Below are positions 16,838 through 35,397 of a stretch of DNA of 35,727 nucleotides, in pieces. Each line of letters opens with the position of its first letter. The first letter of the stretch is position 1. A program made the translations under genes and the position numbers. The DNA is from Alistipes sp. GTDB taxonomy: Bacteria > Bacteroidota > Bacteroidia > Bacteroidales > Rikenellaceae. The stretch lies in contig JAGBIC010000038.1 in NCBI GenBank assembly GCA_017935185.1, positions 1 through 35,727 on the forward strand. Reading direction: 5' to 3'. Below the pieces are notes generated by a model that worked only from the letters and a program-made list of their open reading frames with translations, did not search any database and had not been told where the DNA came from.

Positions 16838-16849
16838 AAAGCTACTCGT

Positions 16850-18751: not shown

Positions 18752-18770
18752 GCCATAATAGATTTGAATT

Positions 18771-20039
18771 ATGAAAAAGAGTATATTATTGATATTATCA
18801 GCGGCTTGCATGTTGGCACAGAGTTGTACCGACGTGAAAAACGAGCCCATTACCCCGGGAGATGCTATTCCCAAGCAGGTAAGCGATATCACTTGGGTTG
18901 CCACCCCCGGTGGTGCCGAGATTAGCTACACTCTTCCTAACGACCCATCACTTCTCTATGTGGAGGCTGTCTACACTCTGAAGTCAGGTGAGATTAGAAA
19001 TGCAAAGGCATCTTTCTATCAGAACAAGCTCGAGATTGAGGGTTTGGCAGATGTTGCTCCTTGTAAGGTTGAGATCTACTCGGTAGGCCGCAACGCAAAG
19101 CGCAGCGAGCCCAAAAAGCTCGAGATTACTCCTCTGGAGGCTCCCGTTTGGACCACTTTCTACTCTGTAAGCATGGAGCCGACCTTTGGTGGTGTTCGCG
19201 TTCAGTTCACCAACGAGACCGAGGCCAGCCTTGCCGTTACCGTTTTGACTACCGATGATGCAGGTGAGTTGTATGCCACCGAGACTTTCTATTCAGAGAG
19301 TGCAAAGGGTGACTATGCAGCACGTGGTTTCGATACTACCGAGCGCACTTTCGGCGTTTGCGTTCGTGACCAGTGGCAGAATAAGTCGGATACATTGTTC
19401 GTGTCGCTCACGCCCAAGTTCGAGATGGAGCTCGACAAGAAGAAGTGGAAGCGAATTGACCTCCCTGGCTCTACTCACGACGGCCACATAGACACCAAAC
19501 TTGAGGGTATGTGGGACGGTCTTGCAAGCAGTGCCACAGCAAGTTTCTTCCACACCAAGCCCAACACAGGCTTCCCCCAGTGGTTTAACTTCGATATGGG
19601 CGTAGAGGCTACCTTGAGCCGCCATGTATTCCACCACCGTGTCAGCAACAAGACCGACGGCGTTTACACCGCTGGTGCGCCGAAGAAGTGGTCGATTTGG
19701 GGTAGTACCGATCCCGATCCCGATGGTGGCTGGAACAACTGGATTCTGCTCGGCACATTCAACTCTATCAAGCCTTCAGGCCTGCCCGGATCAGAGAAGA
19801 CCGACGAGGATTATCAGTATGCAGCAGTTATCGGCGAGAGCTTCGACTTCCCGATGGGATTGCCTCCCGTACGCTACATCCGCTTCGTTACAGAGGCTCC
19901 GTGGGGTAACGTAACCTACATGTATGCATCAGAACTTACCCTCTTTGGTGATGACGGCTCTCACACCCCCGAAGTTCCCTCTGAGGGCGAAGGTGAAGGC
20001 GAAGGTGCCGGCGAGGGCGAAGAGAATAGTAACAACTAA
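18771..20039 (+). CDS. Surface lipoprotein with DUF4959/DUF5126/DUF5000-type domains
   Basis: A 422-residue lipoprotein (Cys19 in LAQSC) in the SusE/surface-glycan-binding position of the operon. The first two thirds look like tandem beta-sandwich domains: DITWVATPGGAEISYTLP resembles DUF4959 and the middle resembles DUF5126. The last part (about 225-397, from KKWKRIDLPGS to YMYASELTLFG) is a discoidin-like DUF5000 domain with conserved Trp. A strikingly acidic Glu-Gly tail follows (EGEGEGEGAGEGEE, near 405-418). It probably binds ligand at the cell surface for SusCD. The domain names are from memory of the architecture, not a search. Confidence 0.82.
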   Translation: MKKSILLILSAACMLAQSCTDVKNEPITPGDAIPKQVSDITWVATPGGAEISYTLPNDPSLLYVEAVYTLKSGEIRNAKASFYQNKLEIEGLADVAPCKVEIYSVGRNAKRSEPKKLEITPLEAPVWTTFYSVSMEPTFGGVRVQFTNETEASLAVTVLTTDDAGELYATETFYSESAKGDYAARGFDTTERTFGVCVRDQWQNKSDTLFVSLTPKFEMELDKKKWKRIDLPGSTHDGHIDTKLEGMWDGLASSATASFFHTKPNTGFPQWFNFDMGVEATLSRHVFHHRVSNKTDGVYTAGAPKKWSIWGSTDPDPDGGWNNWILLGTFNSIKPSGLPGSEKTDEDYQYAAVIGESFDFPMGLPPVRYIRFVTEAPWGNVTYMYASELTLFGDDGSHTPEVPSEGEGEGEGAGEGEENSNN

Positions 20040-20051
20040 TAATGTGACGCT

Positions 20052-21173
20052 ATGAAAATGAGAAAAATTTATATGATGGTTCTCACTGCCATAACCGCAG
20101 TTTCATTATGTGGTTGTGGTGACATGGATGAGACCTACAAAGAGTTTTGGCAGGATGGCGAGATTGTCTATGCAGGTGTTGTAGACTCGCTCACATTCCA
20201 CCCGGGCCGAAACAGGGCACAGATAAGTTTCAAGATTACCGACCCCAGCGTTGATAAGGTACGTATCTTCTGGAACAACAAGCAGCAGAATGTTGAGACA
20301 CCCGTTGATCCCGTAAACAATCAGGGGCCCTATGTTGTTGACCTTCCCGATATGAAGGAGTCAATCTACTCATTCGAGGCTTACTCTTACAACAAGAAGG
20401 AAGACCCATCGATGGCCGTTAGCTTGGTTGGTCGAGTATACGGCTCGGAGTACGAGAAGACCTTGCTTATCACCCCGATGAAGACAGCCGAGCAGGACGA
20501 GCAGAAGCCCGAGAACTTCACCATCACTTGGGGTACTCCCGATGCAACTGCCATCTATTCGGAGGTTATCTATACCGACATCAACGACGAGGTACAGACT
20601 ATCGAGGTTCCATCTTCAGAGAAGAGTACCCTGATTGAGGGTTACAAGGATGGTACAGGTTTCTCTTACAGAACTGTATTTATGCCCGACACATTGGCTA
20701 TCGACAAGTTCTACACAGCCTACAAGGAGTGTGTGGTACGCGGTACTCCCAAGAAGATCGACCGTACAGGCTGGACTTCAACAAGTACCCACGACGAGAG
20801 CAAAGTTCGTCCCGCAACTAACGCTATTGATACCAATGGTTCAAACGAGTGGGTAACAAGCCGTAATAACACTCTGCCCGCAAACGAGCAGTATGCTATT
20901 ATTGACATGAAACAGAAGCACAGAATCTCTGGATTCTATGTCAAGGGCCGTAACAACAAGGATAGTATGCCCAAGGATGGAGAGTTCCTCGTAAGTAACG
21001 ACGGCGAGAATTGGACATCAGTTCTTACTTTCACCCTTCTGAAAGCTGCCGGCGAACAGCTCTTCGATTTGGAGAAGGATGTTGAGGCACGCTACTTCAA
21101 ATATGTGATTAAGTCAAGCCACGACAACAAGACAATGGTTGCCGTATTGGAGCTTGGTGCATATTACCGTTAG
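20052..21173 (+). CDS. Surface lipoprotein with DUF4998 and F5/8-type C (discoidin) domain
   Basis: A 373-residue lipoprotein (lipobox LCGC, Cys22; the residues after it, GDMDE, are acidic as expected for surface export in Bacteroidetes). The N-terminal half resembles DUF4998 (YAGVVDSLTFHPGRNRAQI onward). The C-terminal part (about 236-372) is a discoidin/F5-8 type C carbohydrate-binding fold with STHDESKVRPATNAID, EWVTSRN, QYAIIDM and GFYVKGRNN. It is the last gene of the susCD operon, 12 bp after the previous gene and before a strong terminator. It is probably a second surface ligand-binding protein. Confidence 0.85.
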   Translation: MKMRKIYMMVLTAITAVSLCGCGDMDETYKEFWQDGEIVYAGVVDSLTFHPGRNRAQISFKITDPSVDKVRIFWNNKQQNVETPVDPVNNQGPYVVDLPDMKESIYSFEAYSYNKKEDPSMAVSLVGRVYGSEYEKTLLITPMKTAEQDEQKPENFTITWGTPDATAIYSEVIYTDINDEVQTIEVPSSEKSTLIEGYKDGTGFSYRTVFMPDTLAIDKFYTAYKECVVRGTPKKIDRTGWTSTSTHDESKVRPATNAIDTNGSNEWVTSRNNTLPANEQYAIIDMKQKHRISGFYVKGRNNKDSMPKDGEFLVSNDGENWTSVLTFTLLKAAGEQLFDLEKDVEARYFKYVIKSSHDNKTMVAVLELGAYYR

Positions 21174-21746: not shown

Positions 21747-23078
21747 ATGAGGAGATTTGCAGCGATGATATTAACCGTTTTGGCGATAGGTGGAGTGATT
21801 TACCTCCATCGTATCATCACCTCTGCACCTTCAATCGATGCCGACCCCGAGGAGATACGTTACAGCCTGAACGACTCGCTGTCGAATGCACTCTCCGACA
21901 TGCCCGAAACAAAGAGCATGGAGCAATATATCAAACGCTGGATGGCCCGTCACAACATCCGTGGCGCATCGCTGGCGATAATGGATGGCGAGCAGCTGAT
22001 ATATTGCAAAGGCTTCGGCTGGGCCGACGAGGAGATGGAGCGCGCCGCCGAAGCGGGCGACATCTACCGCATTGCCTCGGCCTCGAAACTTATCACAGCC
22101 ATCGGAGTGATGAAGCTATGCGATCAGGGTAAGCTCTCGCTCGACAGCAAAGTCTTTGGAGAGCAAGGCATTTTAAGTCATTTCACCGAGTTTCGCGACA
22201 AACGTACCGAAAATATCACCGTGCGTCATCTGCTCAACCACACGTCGGGATTCAGCCGCAGGATGGGCGATTTGATGTTCCGCATCCACGACGTGATGGA
22301 TTGGATGGAGCTTTCGACAACGCCCACCTCCGACCAGATTATCGCCTACCAGCTGGGGTTGCGCCTGCGTGACAACCCGGGTGGCTCGGCACAATACTCG
22401 AATGTGGGATATCTGGTGCTTTCGCGAGTAATTGAGCAGGCCTCGGGCATGAGCTACGAGGAGTATCTTCAGACCAACGTGCTGTGGCCCGCAGGGTGCT
22501 ACGACATGCACATCGCCGAGAACTATTATCAAGACCGCTTCCCCCACGAGGTTAAATACTACGGCCACGACGACGAGCATATCGAGTCGTATGACGGCTC
22601 GGGCGCAATGCGCCTGCGCGAGTATGGCGGCAACAACATTAAGGGTTTGCAGGGAGCAGGAGCATGGGTGGCCTCATCGGTGGAACTCATGCGCCTTGTG
22701 GCATCGATTGACGGCAAGCCCGACATCCCCGATGTTATCTCGCCCGAAAGCGTTGCCGAGATGAAGAACATACGCCGTAAAGGTGACTACGCCCTCGGCT
22801 GGGCACGTTACAGCGGAGGGTCGCTGGTGCGCACAGGAACAATGTCGGGAACATGTGCCTACATCGAGAATCGCGAGAACGGCCTATCATACGCTTTCCT
22901 GACCAACACAAGCAGCTACCGCGGCGCAACATTCACAAACTCCATAGGCCGCATGGTACGTGACGCCATGGCACGAGTGAAGGAGTGGCCGCAGGGTAGG
23001 GATCTATTCGTGAGCCTACCGGCAACAGAACAGGAGAACCCCACCGACAGCGTGGCAAAGGTTGACGAAGTGTCGTAA
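21747..23078 (+). CDS. Serine hydrolase, beta-lactamase class C / penicillin-binding-protein fold
   Basis: A 443-residue protein with an N-terminal membrane anchor or uncleaved signal (about 5-20). The catalytic domain runs from about 58 to 430. It has the SxxK motif SASK (Ser111, Lys114), a HTSG motif after HLLN (165-168), the YxN motif YSN (217-219) and a third-strand motif RTGTMSG in place of KTG. The family includes AmpC-like beta-lactamases, DD-peptidases and esterases. The lack of a KTG motif and the general resemblance to periplasmic serine hydrolases make a peptidase or esterase more likely than antibiotic resistance. It has its own promoter and sits between two repeat-bearing intergenic stretches. 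Confidence 0.88.
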   Translation: MRRFAAMILTVLAIGGVIYLHRIITSAPSIDADPEEIRYSLNDSLSNALSDMPETKSMEQYIKRWMARHNIRGASLAIMDGEQLIYCKGFGWADEEMERAAEAGDIYRIASASKLITAIGVMKLCDQGKLSLDSKVFGEQGILSHFTEFRDKRTENITVRHLLNHTSGFSRRMGDLMFRIHDVMDWMELSTTPTSDQIIAYQLGLRLRDNPGGSAQYSNVGYLVLSRVIEQASGMSYEEYLQTNVLWPAGCYDMHIAENYYQDRFPHEVKYYGHDDEHIESYDGSGAMRLREYGGNNIKGLQGAGAWVASSVELMRLVASIDGKPDIPDVISPESVAEMKNIRRKGDYALGWARYSGGSLVRTGTMSGTCAYIENRENGLSYAFLTNTSSYRGATFTNSIGRMVRDAMARVKEWPQGRDLFVSLPATEQENPTDSVAKVDEVS

Positions 23079-23225: not shown

Positions 23226-23254
23226 AAAAAATGCGGGACATAATCCCGCATTTT
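23226..23254 (-). terminator. Terminator of the cytochrome/chorismatase operon
   Basis: An 11-bp stem (AAAATGCGGGA, 5-nt loop, TCCCGCATTTT) is followed on the minus strand by more T, 18 nt after the stop at 23273. It probably also stops the convergent serine hydrolase transcript. Confidence 0.9.
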
Positions 23255-23272
23255 CTATTTGTCTGTAGACTA

Positions 23273-26200
23273 CTACTCTTCGATAATCACACGGAAGCCG
23301 ACATTGTTGGCGGGCTGCCATGCCAGATACGAGTTACGCACATATGCCGCAGCATTCTTGGGATGGCTATCCCACGCGCCGCCACGCACAACCTTGTTGT
23401 CGCTCGCTGCCGCCTCGCCCTTGTAGGGATAGGGTACAAAGCTGCTGCGGGTGAACTCGGCAACGTTTCCGTGCATATCGTGCAAGCCCCATGCATTGGG
23501 AGCATACTTTGCAACATCGGCAATGGTCATAGTGCCATCGTTTACATTATCCTCACGCTTCATGAAGGTGTAGTATTTGTAAACCCAACTTGTCTCTGCC
23601 ACGGGCTGGGGGTCAACACCCGATACCGCCATCTTGCGCAATGACTGGTCAGCCATATTCTCCTGCTTCGAGAAGTCGCTATTCAGGTCGCCATACCAGA
23701 AATCTGTATCGCTACCAGCACGACATGCCCACTCCCACTGCGCCTCGGTAGGCAGTGTTACGCTCTTACCGCTCTTCTGGCTGATAGCCTTACAGAACTC
23801 CATAGCCTGATTCCAGCTGATGCGGGTAACAGGCTGCTCGGGGCGGTTTGCGGCGTAACCCGGGCCCACGTGGTCCTTCCAGAACTGCGCTGTAAAGCGG
23901 CTGTCATGCTCGGGGAATACAACATTATACTGCTTGTTGGTAACCTCGGTTGCTGACATCCAGAAAGGCTTTGAAATCTTCACCAAGCTCGCAGGGGCAT
24001 TGTGACGGCCACGGTTGTTGTTTCCCATCACGAATGTTCCGGCAGGAATACGCACGAATGTCATCTTCACACCCGGGGCAATCTCAAGTTCCATCTTCTG
24101 GTCGCCATACTTCTCAATCATCTGCTTGGCGACAGCCTCATCGAAGGGGAACTTCTTGGTCTTGACATCTTTGTAATTTGGCTTCTCAACCTCTACACGA
24201 ACAGCCTCGGGCTGGGGGTTGTTCTTCTGCCACTCGGCAAACTCCTCCAACTCCTTCTTCCACTCGACACCTGCGCCGTTGGCATACTTGTTGGCCAACT
24301 CGATACGGCGGCTGTATTGGTCGGTGGGGCAGTATGATACCTTGTTGTATACAAACTTACCGTGGTGGGGAGCGTTGAAGTCAATCCAATTATAGAGCGT
24401 ACGCCACTCCTTGTCGGTGAGCTGAACGCCATGGTGGCCGGCCTTCAAGATACGCACCAGCTCGCTGGTAGAGGCATGGTACTCATATGGTTTCATCACA
24501 TATATATCGGCCTCGGGGCCCTGACGATTTACATAGGGGTGCAGATTCAGATAGCTCTGGGTGAGGAACAACTCGCCAGAGTGGGCACGACGTGAGGTGC
24601 GAGAATATACATCTTTATTTTCGCTATCGTTCTTAACCTGAATACCGCCTGTAAAGTCGGGCTTGGCGCCCTTGGCATTGTGGCAAGACACACAATTACG
24701 ATCGAGGATAGGCTGCACCTCCAACTCGTAGGTGAATGAACGCACGCCACCCTCGGGAGTCTGCAACTTGGCAGGAGCTTTTGTAGAGGCCATCACACGC
24801 TTGGGGATAGGCATAGAGTTCTGATCCTCGTGGCAACCCACGCATGAAAGCACCTCGCCAGGCATACCTGTAACCCAGCTGCGCATCCACTGAATTGCGC
24901 GACCCTCCTCGTCCAACGGCTGGAACGATACGGGGGTATTTGCGGGAATCTTGAATATTGCCGATCCGTCGGGCTCAACATCCACCTCGCCGAGGTTACG
25001 CTTGATATCCCAACCACTCTGGATACCCTGTGCAATATGGTCTGACTCCGACTTGACATAGGTATACTCATAGGCGAAAACACGCAACTTCTTAACTGTA
25101 CCAACGGGCACACCTGGAAGACCCTCGCCCTGATAGATATCCTGAATAAATACCGTTGCCTCCTTGTCGCCGGGCTTGATGCGGTCGGGGATGATGGGAG
25201 GTGTGGGGCGTTTCTTCACGATGATGGGGTTGATAAGGCCTTCGCCCTCATACTCGGCAATAAGGGTCATATTGTCGTATACATCGACCAAATAGATACC
25301 CCACAATGATTCGGGAGTAAGTTTGGCCGACACAAGGAAATATTTGTCGCTGATGGGGTAGGGCTTGATAAACTGCGGCCACACGCCATTCACCAGCTCG
25401 TCCTTAATCAAAGGAATAATCTCACGTTTGCTGAAGGGCATCTCCTGAATCATACCCTTGGTCTCCTTGCGGCCCATCGAGGGGTCGAACAGAATCAGAC
25501 GACCCGAACGAGCCACACCGTGGTGACCCGAGATAATACCAACAAAGGTGTTGTTACCTCCGGGTAGGGGCTGCACGTCAAAAATAGAGTTGGGGAACCA
25601 GCCGCCGCTACCATACAGAGCCTTGGTCTCGGTGCCATCGGGGTTGGCGTGCATAACGAAACGAGAGTAGTAGTGGGTAAGGTCGGTATACTCCCAGCGC
25701 ACATACATCAATCGGCCGTTATTCATCACACGGGGATGCCAATTGGCATCCTGATCGAATGTCATACGGCGCATCTCGCCTGTGGCGGGCTCATACGAAA
25801 TCATATTACCCACCTGATCGCTACCATTCACACAAGGAACACCCTGATAACCGATGTTACTCATGGCAATAATGCGGCCGCTGGGCATATAGGCTGCATC
25901 GAAGAACTCCAAATCCTTCTCCTCGGAGTTAATCACCTTATGCAGACCCGAGCCGTCACGCTTGACCTCATATACATTCCAACGCTTCTCCTCGTCGGCA
26001 GCGGTGAATAGGATACGCTCGCCATCCCAATGCAGCAACAAATCGGTTACCGATGTAGAGTGTGCGGGCTTGTAGATTGTGCGGCTCTGCACCTCGCCAC
26101 GCAGGTTGCTCAACTCGGCAATCTCGGCATTGAATCCAGAACGTGAAGATGATGACTGGTTCGACCAGTTGTTGTTCTGTGTACCGAGCGAAGGAGCCAT

Positions 26201-26539
26201 AACCTTACGGGCCTTCTCGCCGATGTTATAACGGCCGACAATAACTTTTGCATTGTCGAGCAAGGGGTTAGAGAGCAGAATCTCACGCTTTAGTTTAATA
26301 ATCTGCTCCTTCGCGCCACTCTTGACAGCCTGCTCCAAAGCCTGCAACTTCTCACCATAGAGCTTGGCGTCGTAGGTTGAACTCTTGCAGAAATCATTGT
26401 AGGCACTACGCACCGACTCAATGCTGAAATAAGTCATCTCGGCATCGGTCTTGAGTTGCGCCGCCTGTTCAGGTGTTACCTGCGCCCATGTTGCAGTGGC
26501 AAAAAGCACCGCAACGATGGTAGATAGCTTAAGTTTCAT
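23273..26539 (-). CDS. Multidomain c-type cytochrome with C-terminal FGE/SUMF1 domain (hydrazine-synthase-alpha-like middle)
   Basis: A 1088-residue exported protein (signal peptide 1-19, ATWAQ). After a helical segment (about 20-115), residues 155-440 form a beta-propeller-like region with repeated WDGERILFTA / PSGRIIAMSN / NNGRLMYVRW strands. The next part resembles the middle domain of hydrazine synthase alpha and related planctomycete proteins. Two haem c motifs follow, CVGCH (566-570) and CVSCH (616-620), the second in a planctomycete-cytochrome-like EVQPILDRNCVSCH. Residues 815-1088 are an FGE/SUMF1 domain (IPAGTFVMGN, TLPTEAQWEWACRAG, MHGNVAEF, RGGAW). The Cys pair that makes true formylglycine generators active is missing (Ser1058 and Ala1063 instead), so sulfatase maturation is unlikely. 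It is last of a three-gene operon, 59 bp after the chorismatase-like gene, and is probably a periplasmic redox protein. Confidence 0.82.
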   Translation of the reverse strand: MKLKLSTIVAVLFATATWAQVTPEQAAQLKTDAEMTYFSIESVRSAYNDFCKSSTYDAKLYGEKLQALEQAVKSGAKEQIIKLKREILLSNPLLDNAKVIVGRYNIGEKARKVMAPSLGTQNNNWSNQSSSSRSGFNAEIAELSNLRGEVQSRTIYKPAHSTSVTDLLLHWDGERILFTAADEEKRWNVYEVKRDGSGLHKVINSEEKDLEFFDAAYMPSGRIIAMSNIGYQGVPCVNGSDQVGNMISYEPATGEMRRMTFDQDANWHPRVMNNGRLMYVRWEYTDLTHYYSRFVMHANPDGTETKALYGSGGWFPNSIFDVQPLPGGNNTFVGIISGHHGVARSGRLILFDPSMGRKETKGMIQEMPFSKREIIPLIKDELVNGVWPQFIKPYPISDKYFLVSAKLTPESLWGIYLVDVYDNMTLIAEYEGEGLINPIIVKKRPTPPIIPDRIKPGDKEATVFIQDIYQGEGLPGVPVGTVKKLRVFAYEYTYVKSESDHIAQGIQSGWDIKRNLGEVDVEPDGSAIFKIPANTPVSFQPLDEEGRAIQWMRSWVTGMPGEVLSCVGCHEDQNSMPIPKRVMASTKAPAKLQTPEGGVRSFTYELEVQPILDRNCVSCHNAKGAKPDFTGGIQVKNDSENKDVYSRTSRRAHSGELFLTQSYLNLHPYVNRQGPEADIYVMKPYEYHASTSELVRILKAGHHGVQLTDKEWRTLYNWIDFNAPHHGKFVYNKVSYCPTDQYSRRIELANKYANGAGVEWKKELEEFAEWQKNNPQPEAVRVEVEKPNYKDVKTKKFPFDEAVAKQMIEKYGDQKMELEIAPGVKMTFVRIPAGTFVMGNNNRGRHNAPASLVKISKPFWMSATEVTNKQYNVVFPEHDSRFTAQFWKDHVGPGYAANRPEQPVTRISWNQAMEFCKAISQKSGKSVTLPTEAQWEWACRAGSDTDFWYGDLNSDFSKQENMADQSLRKMAVSGVDPQPVAETSWVYKYYTFMKREDNVNDGTMTIADVAKYAPNAWGLHDMHGNVAEFTRSSFVPYPYKGEAAASDNKVVRGGAWDSHPKNAAAYVRNSYLAWQPANNVGFRVIIEE

Positions 26540-26598
26540 TTTGTTTATGTTTTATGTTTAGTTAAATATTTTTCAATCCTCCTTGGGTAAACTGCAAA

Positions 26599-27681
26599 TC
26601 ATACGGCAAAGCCCTCAATCTCGATAAGTAGCTCCTCGCGGCAAATGTCGGCCCAAAGGTACAACATATCGACTGCGGGGTAGCTCTCTTTAAGCCACGC
26701 TTTGGCCTCGCTCCAACTCTTATTATCCTTCAGATAGGCTCGCATGGCACAATACTCCAGCCTTTGGGCATCCGCCACGCCACTCTGCTTGAGGTTCTCG
26801 ACACCTGTCAGATGGTCGATATTCTCCATCGTGAGGCGAGCCTGCTCGGCCAGACCCTCGCGGCAACTCTCCTCGCCACGGATGGCCGCCGTGCCCGAAA
26901 TATATACCATAGGCTTATGGCCACACATATATCTCGCACGCTCGAACTTGGGGGTTGTCTTATGCTTCTCTATGCTGTTTATAAGCACCTTCTGCGAATA
27001 GCTGTGGGCCGAAATCTGCAACGGATTATCAACCGGACGGCTATATGCCGAACTATTGCGAAGCGCATCAAAGATAACAACAACGCCTCCCCACTGTGCG
27101 CCTATGCCTGTGGCGGCGGGGTAGCCGTTCGACCACTTGCAGCCGGCATAAAATGCGCTTCGGGCATCGTTAAAGAGCTGATAGTGCTGACCCTGCGGCG
27201 ACAAGGCTGTGATGCGTTCGATATAATTCCATTGGCGCACGATATCGTCCACCGCAATATCTTCGGCAGCAAGAATCTCGCTCATACGATTAAAAATCTG
27301 CTCGGCCTGCCCGCCTATGTCGAGCATGGGATCAGACTGAATTGCCGCCGAGAGAATCTCGCAGCCATCAAGCAGCGCATAATCGCCCTTAAACTCAACC
27401 TGCACATCCTCGGCCACATAGCTAACCTCGGCCGCCAGCGAGCAACACAAAGGCTGTTGCGCAACGTAGGCTGTGAGCAAATCACCACAACGGGTAGCGG
27501 CACACGCCTTTATTATATTGTTCTGCTCGATATACTCCGAATTATCCTTCGGAGCGCCAAAAAAGACCATACGCACCATCTTGCCGCAACCGGCACCCAT
27601 TGCCGACTCAAGCAGATGGCTGACAGCCGCCTGAAAAGCAGATTCTTGTGAACGAAAAATATAATATTGCTTTGTTGTCAT
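26599..27681 (-). CDS. Chorismatase-like protein (FkbO/Hyg5/XanB2 type, RidA fold)
   Basis: A 360-residue cytoplasmic protein with no signal peptide. The C-terminal part has a YjgF/RidA-type fold with chorismatase landmarks: GYPAATGIGAQ (187-197), NPLQISAHSY (219-228), PKFERARYM (244-252), ISGTAAIRGEE (261-271), EQARLTMENI (279-288) and a final CREELLIEIEG (347-357). In that last motif Cys347 and Glu354 have the same spacing as Cys327 and Glu334 of Hyg5. These mark the 3-hydroxybenzoate-forming subtype as I remember the literature. Chorismatases release pyruvate from chorismate. The start lies 4 bp after the stop of the cytochrome gene, so translation is coupled. Activity is inferred; a plain RidA-like deaminase is less likely given the long N-terminal domain and the LLIEIEG ending. 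Confidence 0.75.
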   Translation of the reverse strand: MTTKQYYIFRSQESAFQAAVSHLLESAMGAGCGKMVRMVFFGAPKDNSEYIEQNNIIKACAATRCGDLLTAYVAQQPLCCSLAAEVSYVAEDVQVEFKGDYALLDGCEILSAAIQSDPMLDIGGQAEQIFNRMSEILAAEDIAVDDIVRQWNYIERITALSPQGQHYQLFNDARSAFYAGCKWSNGYPAATGIGAQWGGVVVIFDALRNSSAYSRPVDNPLQISAHSYSQKVLINSIEKHKTTPKFERARYMCGHKPMVYISGTAAIRGEESCREGLAEQARLTMENIDHLTGVENLKQSGVADAQRLEYCAMRAYLKDNKSWSEAKAWLKESYPAVDMLYLWADICREELLIEIEGFAV

Positions 27682-27685
27682 CTAC

Positions 27686-29455
27686 TTACAGTGAATTTAC
27701 ATATTCGGTAAGGGCCTCGGCATCCTTGCGTGATATTTTGCCGTCGATACCGTGTTTATGCACAGTGAAGACCTCCTCGAGTGTGGCAGCACGGCCATCG
27801 AACAGATATGGTGCAGTGCGCCATACCTCGACAAGGGTGGGGGTGTCCCAGCCCTGCTCGAACTCTATATCCTCACCAATGCGATGCATCTGCATATCGG
27901 TGTAATATGGGCCTGAGTGACACTCGGCGCAACCATACTTCTCATACACCTTGCGACCCTCGACAGCCTTTGCCGACAACTCGCCATCAACCAGATAGGG
28001 GCTGGGCAGGGGTTTGAGCGACTTGATGTATTCATCGACATTAACCGCCATATCTTCGGGAATATCACAGAATTGGATAAACTTATATCCTGCCCTTACC
28101 GCCAGACCTGCATGGTCGCGGATACCCGAAATCATACACTTCGGAGTCTCGAAACTATATAGCATGCTCTTGCAGTTCTTCGAGTTGCCGATGCCGTCAT
28201 TCATCAAATCCCAATTCATGCCATCGGTACGCCCATCACCCGGGTGACAACCGTTGCACGACTGCCAATTCTGGTAACACAACACAGCATCGTTGAACGC
28301 ACGCTCACCTGCATCGGCGGGAGACTCTACACGATGTGGATTGTATGCCACAAAATCGACCTTCTGCGAGGCTACATCCACCACATTCAGTGTATCTGAA
28401 AAATATGTGGGCACATACAGCTTGCCATCCTTGAGCGAGATATTGCGCGGGCCGTTGCCATTCAGGGGCAGGCGGGCGCGGATGTTGCGCATGAAATAGA
28501 GGTCGTAATCCATCTTCGAGTAGTCGCCATAGGCGAGCAGACGCTCAATCATGGGCTGATACTCAACAATACTCACCTCGTGAGTGCCCGAGTGGGCAGC
28601 AACAAGATAGTTGCCATCGCAAGCGATATCCCATATTCCGCCGGCACCACGGTCGGGCTCATCCATCGACATCGAGCCAATGAGCGAGAGATTCTCAACA
28701 TCAATCACACTCACAGCGTTGGTATTCATCCAACCCTGCTGCAACTGCGATGTGGGGACTTGAAAACGACCAAGATTATGCGACACAAAGATATATTTTC
28801 CATCGGGCGAACAGGTAACGCCACGCAAAGCATTACTTCCGTTGCTCAGCTTTATATCCTTGATTTTCTCGAAACTTGCCACATCAATCACCGACACATC
28901 TGCCGCCACATAATCAAGGTCGGCACGTTGTGCGGGCAGATAGTTGTTTACAAAGAGATACTTTCCGTCGGGAGTGACGGTGATTGCACAGGGCTCACGC
29001 AATACGGCCACCTCACGCAGCACCTCGCCACTTGCAGCATCCACCTCGCTCACCGTAGCTTTGTAGCGGTTGCAGACATAAATGCGCTTGCCATCGCTGC
29101 TGCATAGTGGGGCACAAGCACCCATGCCTGTTTTTACCTCAAACTTAACGCTGTTGTCGCTCAAATCGACAGCAGTAAGGCTTCCTATAGAATAGCTGCT
29201 GGTGACATAGGCCACATTACCATAGACCGCAACGCCCGTTGCAGGCTCTTTCAATGCCCACGACTGTTTCACCGCACCATCCGAAGCCAACAGCTTCAAC
29301 TCGGAAGTTCCCTTGTTGGCCAACAGAATATCGCCATTATCGGCCACGGCGATATCGGCCGTATACATCGGTTTGACATTGTGGTGAATATCGGCTGACG
29401 AGAGTAGAATCACAGCCGAGAGAATTATCGGAATTACGAAAGATAATTTTTTCAT
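27686..29455 (-). CDS. Beta-propeller / MauG-like di-haem cytochrome c peroxidase family protein
   Basis: A 589-residue exported protein (signal peptide about 1-21). Residues 28-375 are a YVTN/NHL-type beta-propeller with repeated CSPDGKYIFVSHN and TPDGKYLFVNNYL strands. The C-terminal part is a cytochrome c peroxidase/MauG-type domain with two haem motifs, CNGCH (400-404) and CAECH (509-513), and the family motif TPTLVEVWRTAPYLFDG (538-554). MauG proteins use two haems and peroxide to oxidise or modify a partner. An upstream TTG at 29539 would add 28 residues, but the ATG at 29455 gives a clean signal peptide and lies 75 nt after the predicted start point, so I use it. It is the first gene of the operon. 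Confidence 0.87.
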   Translation of the reverse strand: MKKLSFVIPIILSAVILLSSADIHHNVKPMYTADIAVADNGDILLANKGTSELKLLASDGAVKQSWALKEPATGVAVYGNVAYVTSSYSIGSLTAVDLSDNSVKFEVKTGMGACAPLCSSDGKRIYVCNRYKATVSEVDAASGEVLREVAVLREPCAITVTPDGKYLFVNNYLPAQRADLDYVAADVSVIDVASFEKIKDIKLSNGSNALRGVTCSPDGKYIFVSHNLGRFQVPTSQLQQGWMNTNAVSVIDVENLSLIGSMSMDEPDRGAGGIWDIACDGNYLVAAHSGTHEVSIVEYQPMIERLLAYGDYSKMDYDLYFMRNIRARLPLNGNGPRNISLKDGKLYVPTYFSDTLNVVDVASQKVDFVAYNPHRVESPADAGERAFNDAVLCYQNWQSCNGCHPGDGRTDGMNWDLMNDGIGNSKNCKSMLYSFETPKCMISGIRDHAGLAVRAGYKFIQFCDIPEDMAVNVDEYIKSLKPLPSPYLVDGELSAKAVEGRKVYEKYGCAECHSGPYYTDMQMHRIGEDIEFEQGWDTPTLVEVWRTAPYLFDGRAATLEEVFTVHKHGIDGKISRKDAEALTEYVNSL

Positions 29456-29536
29456 AACAACGAAAATGCGGTATTTAAGTAATAAATTCAGGTTTAGTTT
29501 TGGCCTATCATACATATATAATATGTATAATTCACG

Positions 29537-29567
29537 CAAATATAAAGAATATATTTTTATTTATCAA
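29537..29567 (-). promoter_or_regulatory. Promoter for the cytochrome/chorismatase operon
   Basis: On the minus strand TTG (29567-29565), a 20-nt spacer and TATATTTG (29544-29537) match the Bacteroidetes consensus. This position overlaps the upstream TTG codon and supports the ATG at 29455 as the real start. Confidence 0.75.
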
Positions 29568-29908: not shown

Positions 29909-31042
29909 ATGAAAAGACGATTTGCCTTTTTGGGGGCCATATTGTTCATGGCCGGCTCTGTGGTAAGTGCGCAGGAAGTTGACAGTAGTGCGCCGCAACA
30001 GATGTCATCCTGGGAGGATGCGAACCAGACTGATGTTGTTGATTATGTTCCCGCGATTTCGCTCGATGCTCGCTTTGGATACAATCGCAACGTCTCCGAT
30101 AAGACCGGCGGCTTTGGGGGCGACGGTTTATATCTGAACATTGACGGTAAAATAAGTAAAAATTTCACCTATAGTCTATGCCAACGACTCTTCTCGTCGC
30201 ATGGCGAAGACTCCTCAGTTTTTGATGCTACCGACTGGCTTAACCTCACCTATGAGGTGGGCTCTTTCAGCTTTACCGCAGGTAAGGATGTGGTTGCTGT
30301 CGGCAGCTATGAATACGATGCGTATGATATTGATTCATACTTCGATATGAACTCTATCTTCTACAATAGCTTTAGCTGCTACCAGTGGGGCGTGAAGGCC
30401 ATGTGGTCACCCTCCGACAGCAGCTCGCTGGCCTTTCAGGTTACCACCTCACCATTCTCATACGCTCCGCTGGAGGATAATATTTACGCCTACAATCTGG
30501 CATGGTACGGCGAGTGGGAGAGCTACACTTCAATATGGTCGGCCAACCTCTTCGAGTATGAGCCGGGCAAGTTCGTAAAGACCCTCGCTTTGGGCAACAT
30601 GTTCTACGCCGGCAACCTCTCGCTCGGGCTGGATGTTATCATGCGCGGCGAGAAGGTCAAGAACCTGGGCAGGGATATTACCATAAACTTTATGCCCTCA
30701 TACGAATTTGCCGACTGCATACGTCTTTTCGGCAAGGCAGGTTTTGAGCGTGTGGGCGAGCAGCCCTATGACTTTTGGGGCGAATATCTCACTGTGGATG
30801 AAATGGTTGCCGCCAACGAGGAGAACACAGCTATTCTCCCCGCCTTTGCCATTCCCAACCAAAATTATTGGTTCTACGGAGCAGGCATAGAGTACTTCCC
30901 GCTGAAAGAGAACAAGGATATTCGTCTGCATGCCATGTGGGCCTCAAACAACTACACAAAACGCCATGTCGTGAATGTCGGCCTTACATGGAAATTCGAC
31001 ATCGTAAGTGCCATAAAACATATAGCCCGCAAGGCTAAATAA
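29909..31042 (+). CDS. Outer-membrane beta-barrel porin
   Basis: A 377-residue protein with a signal peptide ending at VVSAQ (about 21). Alternating hydrophobic/aromatic strands run through the protein, typical of a phosphate-selective (OprO/OprP-like) or related Bacteroidetes porin (for example FSFTAGKDVVAVGSYEYD, LSLGLDVIMRG, HVVNVGLTWKFD). It is not SusC-like: there is no plug domain or TonB box. It ends 35 bp before potA in the same direction with no terminator between, so it is probably the outer-membrane entry for the polyamine transporter. The substrate is inferred from that context. The exact Pfam porin family is uncertain. Confidence 0.75.
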   Translation: MKRRFAFLGAILFMAGSVVSAQEVDSSAPQQMSSWEDANQTDVVDYVPAISLDARFGYNRNVSDKTGGFGGDGLYLNIDGKISKNFTYSLCQRLFSSHGEDSSVFDATDWLNLTYEVGSFSFTAGKDVVAVGSYEYDAYDIDSYFDMNSIFYNSFSCYQWGVKAMWSPSDSSSLAFQVTTSPFSYAPLEDNIYAYNLAWYGEWESYTSIWSANLFEYEPGKFVKTLALGNMFYAGNLSLGLDVIMRGEKVKNLGRDITINFMPSYEFADCIRLFGKAGFERVGEQPYDFWGEYLTVDEMVAANEENTAILPAFAIPNQNYWFYGAGIEYFPLKENKDIRLHAMWASNNYTKRHVVNVGLTWKFDIVSAIKHIARKAK

Positions 31043-31077
31043 CATAATTTTTCATACCTATTTTTAATTGTCAAAAA

Positions 31078-32460
31078 ATGAAAAATTCCAATTACATCAT
31101 CGAGTTAAGTAACCTCTCGAAATCCTTTGGCGATAAGAAAGTTCTGGATGACGTGAGCCTATATATCAAGAAGGGTGAATTTGTAACAATTTTGGGCCCT
31201 TCGGGATGTGGTAAAACCACACTTCTGCGTATTCTGGCAGGATTCAGCAAAGCCGACGAGGGTGAAATTCACATTGCGGGCGAGAGCATTACCGACGTGC
31301 CGCCGCACGAGCGCCCCGTAAACACTGTTTTTCAGCGATATGCGCTCTTTCCCCATCTGAATGTGTTTGACAATATAGCATTCGGTTTGAAGCTTAAGAA
31401 GGTCAAGCAGGATGAAATAGATTTGCGTGTCCGCAAGGCGCTTAAGATGGTGGGCATGACCGACTACGAGTGGCGTGATGTAAATTCTCTCTCGGGAGGT
31501 CAGCAGCAGCGTGTGGCCATCGCACGCGCCATCGTCAACCGTCCGCAGGTGCTTCTACTCGACGAGCCGCTGGCAGCGCTCGACCTGAAGATGCGCAAGG
31601 ATATGCAGATGGAGCTTAAGGATATGCACAAAACGCTGGGTATCACCTTCGTATACGTTACCCACGACCAAGAGGAGGCGCTCACTCTGAGCGACACCAT
31701 CGTTGTGATGAGCGAGGGCCGCGTGCAGCAGATAGGCACCCCCACCGACATATATAACGAGCCTTCAAACTCGTTTGTGGCCGACTTTATCGGCGAGAGC
31801 AACATCCTGAACGGCACGATGATACGCGACAAGGTGGTGAAGTTCATGAACCGCGAATTCGACTGCGTCGACGTGGGCTTTGGCGAGCAGATACCTGTGG
31901 ATGTTGTCATCCGCCCCGAGGATGTATATATCATGGCGAAGAGTGATTCGGGAATGTTTGACGGCGTGGTGCAGTCATGCATATTCAAGGGCGTACACTA
32001 CGAGATGACGGTTCTCACACCCGACGGCTATGAGATTATGATTCAAGACTATAACGCCTTTGAGGTGGGGCAGGAGGTGAGCATGATTGTCAAGCCTTCC
32101 GATATTCACGTCATGCAAAAGGAGCGCATCTGCAACACCTTCGAGGGTGTGATGAGCGACGCCACCCACATAAAAATGCTGGGTTCGGAGTTCCTCTGCA
32201 ACGAGCAGAAGGATATTGTCGGCGGCGAGAAGGTCATCGTTGAGGTAAACTTCGACAAAATCGACCTGCTGGACAACAAGGAGGATGGTCAGACCGTTGG
32301 TGATGTGCGATTTATCCTCTACAAGGGCGACCACTACCACCTGACGGTGCGCACAGAGGAGGGCGACAACCTCTATGTTGACACTCACGATGTGTGGGAC
32401 GACAGAGATATTGTGGGCATCCGCATCATGCCCGAAGACATGAGAATAACTCGAGTATAA
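31078..32460 (+). CDS. potA: Spermidine/putrescine ABC transporter ATPase with duplicated C-terminal domain
   Basis: This is the ATPase of the polyamine importer. It has Walker [10 protein letters not shown] (40-48), Q-loop Gln86, signature LSGGQ (138-142), Walker B LLLDEP (159-164) and switch His196. At 460 residues it is about 80-90 longer than E. coli PotA. The extra length is a second TOBE-like regulatory segment: about 275-347 ([20 protein letters not shown]) and about 385-459 ([20 protein letters not shown]) align as an internal duplication. The C-terminal domain modulates transport, so the duplication may change regulation by polyamines. It is followed by potB, potC and potD in one operon. 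Confidence 0.93.
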
Positions 32461-32480
32461 ACTGCCAAAAGAGATTGAAA

Positions 32481-33278
32481 ATGAAATGGTTATCAAGACT
32501 CTTCATGAAGCGTCATAACTGGAGTATTCCCTATTTTATATTCCTGCTCATATTTGTGGTGCTGCCGCTGGTGCTGATCTTCATATATGCTTTTCAGGAT
32601 GCCGAGGGCAATTTCACCTTGCGCAATTTCACCAAGTTTATCACCCATGCCGAGGCGGCCAACACCTTTGTATATTCAATAGGCGTGGCAATCATCACCA
32701 CGATACTATGCATCCTGCTGGGTTATCCTGCGGCATACATCCTGAGCAATAACGAGTTATGCCGTTCAAAGGTGATGGTTGTACTCTTCATCCTGCCCAT
32801 GTGGATCAACATTCTCGTCCGCACGCTGGCCACGGTGGCGCTCTTCGACTTTATGCGTCTGCCGCTGGGCGAGGGAGCTCTGATTTTCGGTATGGTATAC
32901 AACTTCCTGCCGTTTATGATTTATCCCATCTACAACACCATGCAGAAGATGGACCACAGCTACATCGAGGCGGCACAGGATTTGGGTGCCAGCCCCATGA
33001 AGGTCTTTACGAAGGTCATGCTGCCGCTATCTATGCCGGGTGTGATGAGTGGAATCATGATGGTATTCATGCCGACAATATCGACATTCGCCATTGCCGA
33101 GCTGCTGACGATGAACAACATCAAACTCTTTGGTACTACCATACAAGAGAACATAAACAACGGAATGTGGAACTATGGCGCAGCCTTGTCGCTCATCATG
33201 TTGGTGATAATTTTTGCCACCGACCTGTTCAGCGACAGCGACGAGGAGCGTGCATCTAACGAGGGAGGAATAATCTGA
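32481..33278 (+). CDS. potB: Spermidine/putrescine ABC transporter permease
   Basis: A 265-residue membrane protein with six helices and the EAA loop that contacts the ATPase (IEAAQDLGASPMKVF). I start at 32481, 20 nt after the potA stop. The open frame continues upstream to 32394, but that would overlap potA and add a charged, non-membrane leader. Its stop overlaps the potC start by one base (TGATG), so translation is coupled. It forms the channel with PotC. Confidence 0.94.
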   Translation: MKWLSRLFMKRHNWSIPYFIFLLIFVVLPLVLIFIYAFQDAEGNFTLRNFTKFITHAEAANTFVYSIGVAIITTILCILLGYPAAYILSNNELCRSKVMVVLFILPMWINILVRTLATVALFDFMRLPLGEGALIFGMVYNFLPFMIYPIYNTMQKMDHSYIEAAQDLGASPMKVFTKVMLPLSMPGVMSGIMMVFMPTISTFAIAELLTMNNIKLFGTTIQENINNGMWNYGAALSLIMLVIIFATDLFSDSDEERASNEGGII

Positions 33279-34081
33279 TGAAACGTTTTTTTGCACAGGC
33301 ATATCTATGGCTTCTGCTGGCGATGTTGTATGCGCCAATACTCATCATAGCCATATTCTCGTTCACCGAAGCGAAGGTGTTGGGCAACTGGACAGGTTTC
33401 TCGACCAAGCTCTACACGTCGCTCTTCTCGGGCGGAGTGCATCACTCGCTGCTCAGTGCCATCGAGAACACCTTTATTATAGCCATCATCGCCGCTACGC
33501 TCTCAACAATATTGGGTAGTGTGGCTGCCATAGGCATATACAATCTGCGTGCCCACAAGAAGATGGTGATGAACACGCTGAACAACATCCCGATGCTCAA
33601 CCCCGACATCATCACAGGTATATCGCTCTTCCTGCTCTTCGTCAGTCTGGGTATCACGCAGGGCTACACCACGGTAATTCTGGCGCATGTGACATTCTGC
33701 ACGCCATATGTTGTGTTGTGTGTTATTACCCGCCTGCAACAGATGAATCCCAACATCTATGAGGCTGCGCTGGATTTGGGTGCAACACCGTATCAGGCGC
33801 TGCGCAAGGTTATCATCCCCGAGATCAAGCCGGGCATGATTAGTGGATTTATCCTCGCTTTTACGCTCTCGATCGACGACTTTGCCGTTACGATTTTCAC
33901 CATCGGCACAGGCGGCCTTGAGACCCTCTCGACCTACATCTACGCCGATGCACGCAAGGGCGGACTCACACCCGAGCTGCGCCCGCTGTCAACGATAATT
34001 TTTGTTACAGTGCTTGTGCTGCTCATCATCATCAATGTGCGCTCGGCACGTGCCAAGAAGAGAAAGGAGGCAACGCTATGA
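33278..34081 (+). CDS. potC: Spermidine/putrescine ABC transporter permease
   Basis: A 267-residue partner permease with six helices and the EAA loop YEAALDLGATPYQALRKV. A purine-rich GAGGGAGGAA near 33261 inside potB can serve as ribosome binding site, uncommon in this phylum. Its end overlaps potD by 4 bp (ATGA). Length and order match standard potABCD. Confidence 0.94.
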   Translation: MKRFFAQAYLWLLLAMLYAPILIIAIFSFTEAKVLGNWTGFSTKLYTSLFSGGVHHSLLSAIENTFIIAIIAATLSTILGSVAAIGIYNLRAHKKMVMNTLNNIPMLNPDIITGISLFLLFVSLGITQGYTTVILAHVTFCTPYVVLCVITRLQQMNPNIYEAALDLGATPYQALRKVIIPEIKPGMISGFILAFTLSIDDFAVTIFTIGTGGLETLSTYIYADARKGGLTPELRPLSTIIFVTVLVLLIIINVRSARAKKRKEATL

Positions 34082-35397
34082 AACAGTTTATAAATATCTT
34101 TTTTGCCCTGCTCACCGCCATCGCCTGCATGGGCTGCGGAACAAGTGACGCGCGCCAATCAATCCTGAAGGTCTATAATTGGGCCGACTATATCGACGAG
34201 GCGCTGCTGTCGGAGTTTGAGGAGTGGTACGAGGAGCAGACTGGCGAGAAGGTTGAAGTTGTATACCAACTATTTGATATTAACGAGATTATGCTCGCCA
34301 AAATCGAGCGCGGCAAGGAGGATTTCGATGTGGCTTGCCCCTCGGAGTATATCATCGAGCGCATGCTCAAGAACGATTTGCTGCTGCCCATAAACAAGGA
34401 TTTCGGTTCTACACCCAACTACCTCGACAACGTGTCGCCCTACATCCAAAAGGTCTTCTCCGACATCGACGGCAACGGCAAAGACCCCCACGACTATGCT
34501 GTGGGATACATGTGGGGTACAACAGGATTTCTCTACAACACAAAATATGTCGCACCCGAGGAGGTGAGTTCGTGGAGCGCTTTGTGGAATCCCAAATTCG
34601 AGAAGAAGCTCTTTGTGAAGGACGCTTTCCGTGACGTTTACAGCCCGCTGCTGATATATGCCAAGCAGGAGGAGATCAAGCGTGGTGAGGTAACCATACA
34701 GGAGTTGATGCACGACTCGTCGGATGAGTCGATAGCCATCGTCGAGGCTCTGCTGAAAAAGACCAAGCAGAATGTGGCCGGCTGGGAGGCCGACTTCGGC
34801 AAGGAGATGATGACCAAAGAGAAGGCGTTGCTTAACCTCACATGGAGTGGTGACGCTGTGTGGGCCATCGAGGAGGCTGCCGATGTGGATGTCGAGCTCG
34901 ACTATCTCGTTCCCGACGAGGGTAGCATCGTGTGGTTTGACGGCTGGGTAATCCCCAAATATGCCAAGAACACCAAGGCGGCTGCCTATTTCATCAACTT
35001 TATGTGCAAGTCCGAGAATGCCATCCGCAACATGGAAGAGATTGGCTATGTGAGCGTTATCGGCACACCCGAGGTTATGGAGTATATGTCGGAGTCGGCT
35101 GTTGAGGCGGGTTTTGAGGAGGCTCTCGACCTGAGTTACTTCTTCGGTGACGAGGCCGACAGCGTGGTTGTAAACCCCGTTTTATACCCCGACAAAAGCG
35201 TTATGGAGCGTTGTGCCATGATGCACGACAGCGGCCCGAGAACCGAGGCTCTGCTGGAGATGTGGTCACGAGTGAAGGGCGACAACCTGAACAATTGGAT
35301 GGTAATATTTATCCTCTGCGTCTTTGGTGTACTGCTTGCCGTAGGTATCATGCGCAAAATCAAGCAACGCCGCCAGCGCACAATCAAGTGGAGGTAA
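34078..35397 (+). CDS. potD: Spermidine/putrescine-binding lipoprotein with C-terminal membrane helix
   Basis: A 439-residue periplasmic binding protein that captures polyamine for PotABC. A lipoprotein signal ends at Cys20 (ACMGC). The mature domain starts LKVYNWADYIDEALL, the hallmark start of PotD/PotF, and includes DFDVACPSEYI, YMWGTTGFLYNT, NLTWSGDAVWAI and WFDGWVIPK, whose Trp and Asp residues form the polyamine pocket in relatives. Unusually, about 35 extra residues follow at the end: a hydrophobic helix (about 407-425, MVIFILCVFGVLLAVGIM) and a basic tail (KIKQRRQRTIKWR). E. coli PotD is soluble, about 348 residues, with no such helix. Membrane tethering at both ends is implied. Confidence 0.92.
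   Translation: MKQFINIFFALLTAIACMGCGTSDARQSILKVYNWADYIDEALLSEFEEWYEEQTGEKVEVVYQLFDINEIMLAKIERGKEDFDVACPSEYIIERMLKNDLLLPINKDFGSTPNYLDNVSPYIQKVFSDIDGNGKDPHDYAVGYMWGTTGFLYNTKYVAPEEVSSWSALWNPKFEKKLFVKDAFRDVYSPLLIYAKQEEIKRGEVTIQELMHDSSDESIAIVEALLKKTKQNVAGWEADFGKEMMTKEKALLNLTWSGDAVWAIEEAADVDVELDYLVPDEGSIVWFDGWVIPKYAKNTKAAAYFINFMCKSENAIRNMEEIGYVSVIGTPEVMEYMSESAVEAGFEEALDLSYFFGDEADSVVVNPVLYPDKSVMERCAMMHDSGPRTEALLEMWSRVKGDNLNNWMVIFILCVFGVLLAVGIMRKIKQRRQRTIKWR

Follow-up and report, generated by a model that had tools for sequence, protein, structure and literature searches.

A predicted Alistipes operon for hydrazine synthase-like haem proteins and a chorismatase homologue

In a stretch of 35,727 nucleotides from Alistipes sp. 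(contig JAGBIC010000038.1; the whole stretch is referred to as the window), three genes on the minus strand form a predicted operon, for which we propose, with about even confidence, a role as a tetrahaem oxidoreductase of the periplasm that is linked to carbohydrates and served by a chorismatase in the cytoplasm. In sequence comparisons, gene 1 proved homologous to the beta (YVTN propeller) and gamma (di-haem, CCP/MauG-like) subunits of hydrazine synthase (HZS) in fused form, gene 2 is a homologue of the FkbO/Hyg5 family of chorismatases, and gene 3 is an HZS-alpha homologue with a C-terminal FGE-fold domain. The proteins encoded by genes 1 and 3 are probably exported, as they start with a signal-peptide-like stretch, and the product of gene 2, which has no such start, is probably cytoplasmic (all read by eye). 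The four CxxCH haem sites reported in a first-pass annotation of the window were found on the two exported-looking proteins (residues 400 and 509 of gene 1, residues 566 and 616 of gene 3), and the full translation of gene 2 contained none. At the thresholds used, the metabolic system of which the trio appears to form the core is nearly confined to Bacteroidales.

Genes 1 and 3 encode homologues of hydrazine synthase subunits

The first-pass annotation had described the product of gene 1 as a MauG-like di-haem propeller protein. The di-haem part and the propeller were confirmed, but the protein is better named an HZS beta-gamma homologue. As a single sequence compared with HZS of Kuenenia, it matched the beta and gamma subunits along one chain (E 6e-28 and 1e-15, respectively), and a profile of 21 family members matched the corresponding chains of the HZS structure in the PDB (5c2v_B, E 2e-35; 5c2v_C, E 5e-31). 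The best NCBIfam match was hydrazine_BC (E 6e-30), with a score of 104 bits that lies under the curated cut-off of 1250.

According to two articles, His229 and His332 are the ligands of haem gamma-II and Tyr591 that of haem alpha-I in HZS (PMC12607021), while His772 is the alpha-II ligand and gamma Cys165 forms a third thioether on haem gamma-I (PMC12758564). In the gene 1 family, C400/C403/H404, C509/C512/H513 and H568 were invariant in 37 of 37 aligned proteins, and H513 and H568 align with the His229/His332 pair. Counted on the profile alignment, an offset of 39 between chain 5c2v_C and the full HZS numbering fits Cys102/Cys105/His106, His229 and His332. The gamma-I region is conserved within the family (C400..H404, W415-D416, K426-N427). 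The position of HZS Cys165 is occupied by V453 in the profile alignment and by C463 in the single-sequence alignment, the latter being a cysteine only in the rows from the genus of the window, and neither alignment revealed a conserved counterpart of Cys165 or Asp168. Because the alignments disagree locally, we claim for the gamma-I residues His144 and Asp168 only that no conserved counterpart was seen.

The gamma domain also scored just over the cut-off of Pfam CCP_MauG (28.8 vs 25.6 bits), a match that the six-frame family search did not pick up, and weakly matched MbnH and NCBIfam TTQ_mauG. These matches would suit a radical-forming MauG/MbnH-like maturase of a partner protein, with the aromatic as electron donor. 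We regard this as very unlikely: HZS gamma was the best match among the di-haem proteins in the PDB, the TTQ_mauG score of 25.3 bits is far from its cut-off of 443.85, and no partner protein stood out among the recurrent neighbour families, which were built from frames of at least 110 amino acids, so that a partner of smaller size may have escaped notice. Because HZS gamma matched best among the di-haem proteins, a plain MauG partner system was also rejected. A strong CCP_MauG match of the same genome (192 bits) lies on another contig (C38:40657-41100).

Gene 3 had been annotated as a giant protein resembling a c-type cytochrome and FGE. Its haem motifs and FGE fold stood, whereas its core proved to be HZS alpha-like: a profile of 18 gene 3 cores without the FGE tail matched only HZS alpha (5c2v_A, E 5.5e-34) at E ≤ 1e-5 in the PDB. 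The NCBIfam model hydrazine_alpha gave 38.9 bits, under its cut-off of 800. C566/C569/H570, C616/C619/H620 and H702 were invariant in 29 of 29 aligned proteins; H620 and H702 align with the alpha-II pair of HZS, H702 corresponding to His772. No equivalent of Tyr591 was found four residues after the histidine of the alpha-I CxxCH motif, where gene 3 reads E571 D572 Q573 N574, and none of 21 aligned family rows has a tyrosine there. With respect to the tail, catalytic FGEs contain a copper-binding cysteine pair near the C-terminus, in a GGxW..R stretch. The corresponding GGAWDS..VGFRV stretch of gene 3 contains no cysteine, nor is there one past residue 939, and an active FGE was therefore rejected. 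The domain probably serves in binding or as a scaffold.

The HZS modules, the haem motifs and the conserved gamma-I region might also indicate that the operon makes or handles reactive nitrogen, as an HZS cousin acting on nitric oxide, hydroxylamine or ammonium in detoxification or in N-N or N-O bond synthesis. This appears quite unlikely in view of the missing tyrosine at the proximal alpha-I position, the lack of a conserved Cys165/Asp168 counterpart and the sugar-type enzymes among the partners described below. In addition, PMC12758564 argues that non-anammox homologues cannot form hydrazine.

Gene 2 encodes a chorismatase homologue

The chorismatase-like fold assigned to gene 2 in the first-pass annotation was supported by Pfam FkbO_Hyg5-like_N (50.1 bits, gathering score 27). 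The score with NCBIfam TIGR04444, chorismatase, was 114.7 bits and thus under the cut-off of 325. As stated in PMC7170507, type-II chorismatases, which form 3-hydroxybenzoate, are marked by a catalytic glutamate and three subfamily residues (E325, G164, G231 and C318 of Nat-hyg5; Hyg5 numbering equals Nat-hyg5 numbering plus 9). Counted on the PDB alignment, G192, G263, C347 and E354 of gene 2 correspond to Hyg5 G173, G240, C327 and E334, and all four were invariant in 32 of 32 aligned orthologues. The N-terminal third of the protein diverges, the PDB alignment beginning at residue 136.

A sister chorismatase was present in eight of the 150 family genomes, all without gene 1. Its context was studied in stretches from six genomes, of which L180 was readable only at the chorismatase and L179 lost the chorismatase to the open reading frame filter. 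Downstream of it, L181-L184 contain genes of the PSCyt2/PSD1 and DUF1501 types and then another large gene (Pfam-checked in L182 only), a set that is planctomycete-type and unlike that of the gene 1 operon. One chorismatase lineage beside two unrelated gene sets fits, without proving it, a chorismate-derived aromatic that serves such systems. The type-II residues and this sister group are thus compatible with the suggestion of the first-pass annotation that an aromatic made from chorismate may be used or oxidised in the periplasm. In locus L143, which lacks gene 2, a different chorismatase-like reading frame (L143:21122-21742; by eye, no Pfam or NCBIfam match) directly follows the LsrF gene. 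Matches to it occurred in 13 of 17 genomes searched, so that it may be a general paralogue, and the idea that it replaces gene 2 was dropped.

The trio is conserved in Bacteroidales

Gene 1 was detected in 31 of 150 genomes of the family (E 1e-20), in 20 of 393 genomes across the order, the genome of the window included (E 1e-100), and, across the phylum, in two of 395 genomes, this one and a second member of the order. A scan of a genome collection gave 463 pattern matches, 448 of which encode relatives, and the best 80 loci were kept. Most of these are labelled Alistipes/Rikenellaceae, Bacteroides, Parabacteroides, Tannerellaceae or Dysgonamonadaceae, and single loci carry labels such as Chitinophaga, Tangfeifania and Paraprevotella.

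Adjacency of the genes in related genomes had been set beforehand as a check on the first-pass annotation, and it was not rare: among the 76 loci with at least 1 kb downstream of gene 1, the chorismatase gene came next in 64. An alpha gene was present in all 61 loci with at least 6.5 kb downstream and lay downstream of gene 1 in 60 of them. An IclR-family gene (two members profile-checked) was located directly upstream of gene 1 in 49 of the 76 loci; in L096, L147, L150 and L151 its place is taken by a gene for a large hybrid two-component-like regulator (by eye). The congener locus L054 shows a tandem order of beta-gamma, short alpha, a second beta-gamma, chorismatase and alpha-FGE genes. Across 51 loci, the distance matrices of the proteins were correlated (beta-gamma/chorismatase, r 0.94; beta-gamma/alpha, 0.87; chorismatase/alpha, 0.85), and for each of the three pairs none of 2000 permutations reached the observed r. 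This correlated divergence shows common descent of the three proteins as a unit, not a common function.

A wider gene set accompanies gene 1

In relatives from other genera, the operon extends to a set comprising genes for IclR, beta-gamma, chorismatase, a cupin, alpha-FGE, CcsBA, a VOC-like protein, DhaK, DhaL, LsrF and a propeller protein. Within the 61 loci with at least 6.5 kb downstream of gene 1, the cupin gene was present downstream in 49, DhaK in 39 and CcsBA in 32. CcsBA acts in haem-c assembly (PF01578 and PF05140 in L104). The cupin is a lipoprotein and a relative of D-lyxose isomerase, the small VOC-like protein was recognized by eye and has no Pfam match, and LsrF exceeded its curated cut-off in the one relative tested (459.6 vs 297). 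In the genome of the window, DhaK, DhaL (by eye), LsrF and RhaD genes lie on contig C17, and the cupin and VOC-like genes on contig C47.

The co-occurrence of gene 1, LsrF, cupin, chorismatase and CcsBA was counted in one shared set, the 150 family genomes. LsrF (E 1e-60) was present in 26 and the cupin (E 1e-10) in 27 of the 31 genomes with gene 1, and neither was seen in any of the 119 without it. Chorismatases of E 1e-119 or better occurred in 29 of the 31 and in none of the 119; this dividing line was drawn once the scores were known. Fisher tests for these three gave p values of about 2e-24 and below, with relatedness ignored. The possibility that the three genes share a promoter but have unrelated functions, to which the absence of the chorismatase from 12 of the 76 loci would lend weight, seems barely credible in view of these distributions and of the correlated divergence, which reflects descent as a unit.

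The operon has a carbohydrate context

Several loci point to carbohydrates. The long alpha protein of L104, the one tested, carries an NPCBM domain; four of the 80 loci (L095, L097, L128, L143) have SusC/SusD-type genes on the strand of gene 1 and upstream of it, and in L139 a gene for a PCMD lipoprotein is found upstream. In a variant operon, genes for a short alpha protein, beta-gamma and chorismatase are joined by one for an iron alcohol dehydrogenase. Near the variant operon of L046 we found genes for KduI (432.7 over 250), a gluconate 5-dehydrogenase-type SDR (437 over 369), GH88, DUF2264 and a BT3233-family protein, and the neighbours in L044, read by eye, are the same. Because of this context, a free aromatic is a less likely substrate than a derivative of a sugar or uronate. 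A 3-keto-glycoside pathway in Alistipes was also considered and dropped.

The same context could mean that chorismate is not the substrate of the chorismatase-fold enzyme, which would instead use a carboxylated enol ether derived from that carbohydrate, e.g., a 4,5-unsaturated uronate, and that the operon serves pure sugar or uronate oxidation. Chorismate and unsaturated uronates both contain a carboxylated enol ether. The KduI, SDR and GH88 genes beside the variant operon and the score of gene 2 under the curated chorismatase cut-off would agree with this. Nevertheless we consider it unlikely, since the type-II residues and the catalytic glutamate are invariant in the orthologues and since the sister group keeps the same residues beside a different gene set.

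Proposed function

For the reading that we prefer, a carbohydrate-linked tetrahaem oxidoreductase served by a chorismatase, the following course can be envisaged. By analogy with HZS, we infer a complex of the gene 1 and gene 3 products: the two exported proteins would assemble in HZS fashion into a tetrahaem enzyme of the periplasm, in which the propeller would connect two catalytic haems. The substrate, a small molecule derived from a carbohydrate, might be oxidised or rearranged by this enzyme, and the product could then be isomerised by the cupin, phosphorylated by DhaKL and cleaved by LsrF and RhaD to dihydroxyacetone phosphate and an acyl or aldehyde fragment. In the cytoplasm, the chorismatase would convert chorismate to 3-hydroxybenzoate and pyruvate. 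In the least certain step, the aromatic would act as a redox mediator or co-substrate for the exported complex.

A number of observations weigh against this proposal. No gene of the operon reads as a ligase or oxygenase or otherwise visibly consumes 3-hydroxybenzoate, so that any role of this compound is conjectural. All of seven other chorismatase-like proteins (five of the sister group and two weak relatives outside the operon) keep the type-II residues, which therefore do not single out gene 2 and speak more for general chorismatase activity than for a function peculiar to the operon. As the chorismatase is missing from the 12 loci mentioned and, in its high-scoring form, from two of the 31 genomes, it is not indispensable. 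Chorismatase relatives at E 1e-15 occur in 47 of the 150 genomes; the lower-scoring ones add 18 genomes, and gene 1 is absent from 17 of these. LsrF is missing from five and the cupin from four of the 31 genomes; G028 and G063, which have neither, carry the short-alpha variant. The cupins of L172 and L176 have no evident signal peptide, which leaves the location of this protein unsettled. Operon-type CcsBA is not specific (23 of 31 genomes with gene 1 vs 13 of 119 without it) and was not found in the genome of the window at E 1e-30. A shorter CcsA-type protein is present in this genome, which makes haem attachment feasible there, and in seven of seven congeners with gene 1 that were searched; it was also found in two of five congeners without gene 1. 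As to the HZS assignments, a surface-layer YVTN propeller (1l0q, E 2e-39) ranked first when the gene 1 profile was compared with the PDB, its best stretch covering profile positions 81-187, within the propeller part alone, vs 89-362 for HZS beta, and full-length gene 3 matched FGE-fold proteins first (E 2.5e-11) and HZS alpha at 9.8e-6 in the PDB. Finally, the 80 loci represent the top of a list of 448, and genomes that are related do not count as independent.

A more far-reaching and improbable idea is that gut Bacteroidales use a tetrahaem tunnel enzyme with two sites to couple, in the periplasm, 3-hydroxybenzoate made from chorismate with a small reactive intermediate, either a nitrogen species or a radical of a carbohydrate, HZS of anammox bacteria being a specialised branch of a wider synthase family. 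We know of no such two-site coupling of 3-hydroxybenzoate in any cultured gut bacterium. To our knowledge, HZS was long thought to be unique to anammox bacteria. Named Bacteroides, Parabacteroides and Rikenella isolates contain relatives of all HZS subunits within a conserved operon setting, and in the family set the two unlinked genes for the partners cupin and LsrF are confined to genomes with gene 1. With HZS-family relatives in culturable anaerobes, the ancestral chemistry of the enzyme family becomes testable. The operon represents a candidate for a new haem-dependent carbohydrate pathway in the gut and a chorismatase setting outside the antibiotic and pigment clusters known to us.

Operon structure and neighbouring genes of the window

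The layout given in the first-pass annotation, with three genes on the minus strand separated by 4 bp (genes 1 and 2) and 59 bp (genes 2 and 3) and followed by a terminator hairpin, was reproduced (Table 1). For gene 1, a longer reading frame with a TTG start at 29539 is possible, and the ATG was chosen because it fits the start sites of close relatives. The single promoter that had been claimed is less certain. A TANNTTTG box, which we take to be the consensus of a Bacteroidetes-type promoter box, is present upstream of gene 1, but the two strands of the window together contain 37 copies of the motif (a density of about 0.5 per kb per strand), one more of them 331 nt upstream of the gene 1 ATG, which makes the box weak promoter evidence. 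The terminator scan near the end of gene 3 gave two sites, one hairpin seen on both strands, vs 0.4 expected. That the trio is more than a chance arrangement follows from its conservation in related genomes.

Table 1. Coordinates of the predicted operon and its features in the window.
Feature	Position	Strand	Remarks
Gene 1	27686..29455	-	ATG 29455, stop 27686, 589 aa
Gene 2	26599..27681	-	360 aa
Gene 3	23273..26539	-	1088 aa
Gene 1, CxxCH 400-404	28244..28258	-	aligned with HZS haem gamma-I motif, invariant 37/37
Gene 1, CxxCH 509-513	27917..27931	-	aligned with HZS haem gamma-II motif
Gene 3, HZS_alpha middle domain, residues 480-571	24827..25102	-	PF18582, E 5e-38
Gene 3, CxxCH 566-570	24830..24844	-	aligned with HZS haem alpha-I motif
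Gene 3, CxxCH 616-620	24680..24694	-	aligned with haem alpha-II motif
Gene 3, FGE-sulfatase-fold domain, residues 827-1085	23285..24061	-	141 bits
TANNTTTG promoter-like box	29537..29544	-	89 nt 5' of gene 1 ATG, weak
Intrinsic terminator hairpin	23226..23256	-	14-pair stem, then T run; 3' of gene 3

The region 13727-21173 of the window contains SusC, SusD, DUF4959/5126/5000 and DUF4998/F5_F8 genes. Similar SusC/SusD sets are located directly upstream of gene 1 in L143 and, with two frames and IclR between, in L128. None of the 12 loci most closely related to the window (L074-L085) has such a set, so that its position by the operon may be due to chance. At 21747-23078, a convergent gene encodes a PF00144 serine beta-lactamase-like protein, which is also found near the operon in L074, L085, L086, L087 and L152. 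On the other side, the divergent genes at 29909-35397 encode an outer-membrane (porin)-like protein without a Pfam match and a polyamine-type ABC transporter (by eye). The porin-like family lies beside the operon in ten of the 80 loci, all labelled Alistipes or Rikenellaceae, and a functional link of these divergent genes with the operon was considered but not adopted.

Comparison with known systems

The component families of the operon are known, and the arrangement itself appears to be new: in the open-access literature we found no description of an operon combining a chorismatase with haem assembly, kinase and aldolase genes. The type-II chorismatases Hyg5 and Nat-hyg5 share with gene 2 the fold, the Gly/Gly/Cys residues and the catalytic glutamate, whereas FkbO has alanine at two of the three subfamily positions in the PDB alignment. 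Gene 2 differs from Hyg5 and Nat-hyg5 in its diverged N-terminal third and in that it adjoins haem-protein genes, with no non-ribosomal peptide or polyketide synthase genes seen alongside. With the LsrK/LsrF pathway of autoinducer-2 degradation, the relatives' operon has the LsrF-type thiolase in common, but, compared with LsrK and LsrG, the gut set contains a DhaK/DhaL-type kinase and other partners.

HZS homologues outside anammox bacteria, including fused beta-gamma proteins affiliated with Bacteroidota, were reported in December 2025, with the argument that they are unable to make hydrazine (PMC12758564). Like the trio, clades I-IV of Planctomycetota and Desulfobacterota described there have co-located alpha and fused beta-gamma genes and an atypical alpha-I site. 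Their reported neighbours include FG-GAP/CRTAC1 proteins and ABC transporters, whereas no chorismatase, kinase or aldolase is mentioned in the part of that article consulted. Clade I is said there to lack His772, unlike the gene 3 family with its invariant histidine at this position.

The trio shares with HZS of anammox bacteria (5c2v; beta and gamma are fused in Ca. Scalindua) the alpha, beta and gamma modules, the beta-gamma fusion and the four CxxCH motifs and, by alignment, the gamma-II histidine pair and the distal alpha-II histidine. It differs by the lack of a Tyr591 equivalent and of a conserved Cys165/Asp168 counterpart, by scores far under the curated cut-offs, by the added FGE-fold tail, by an operon with a chorismatase and sugar enzymes and by its occurrence in gut bacteria. 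Since the NCBIfam cut-offs were not reached, we regard the HZS-like and chorismatase genes as homologues rather than members of the curated equivalog families. As the electron-transfer haems are kept and the alpha-I site is not, the comparison does not support hydrazine synthesis but argues for an HZS-like tetrahaem architecture.

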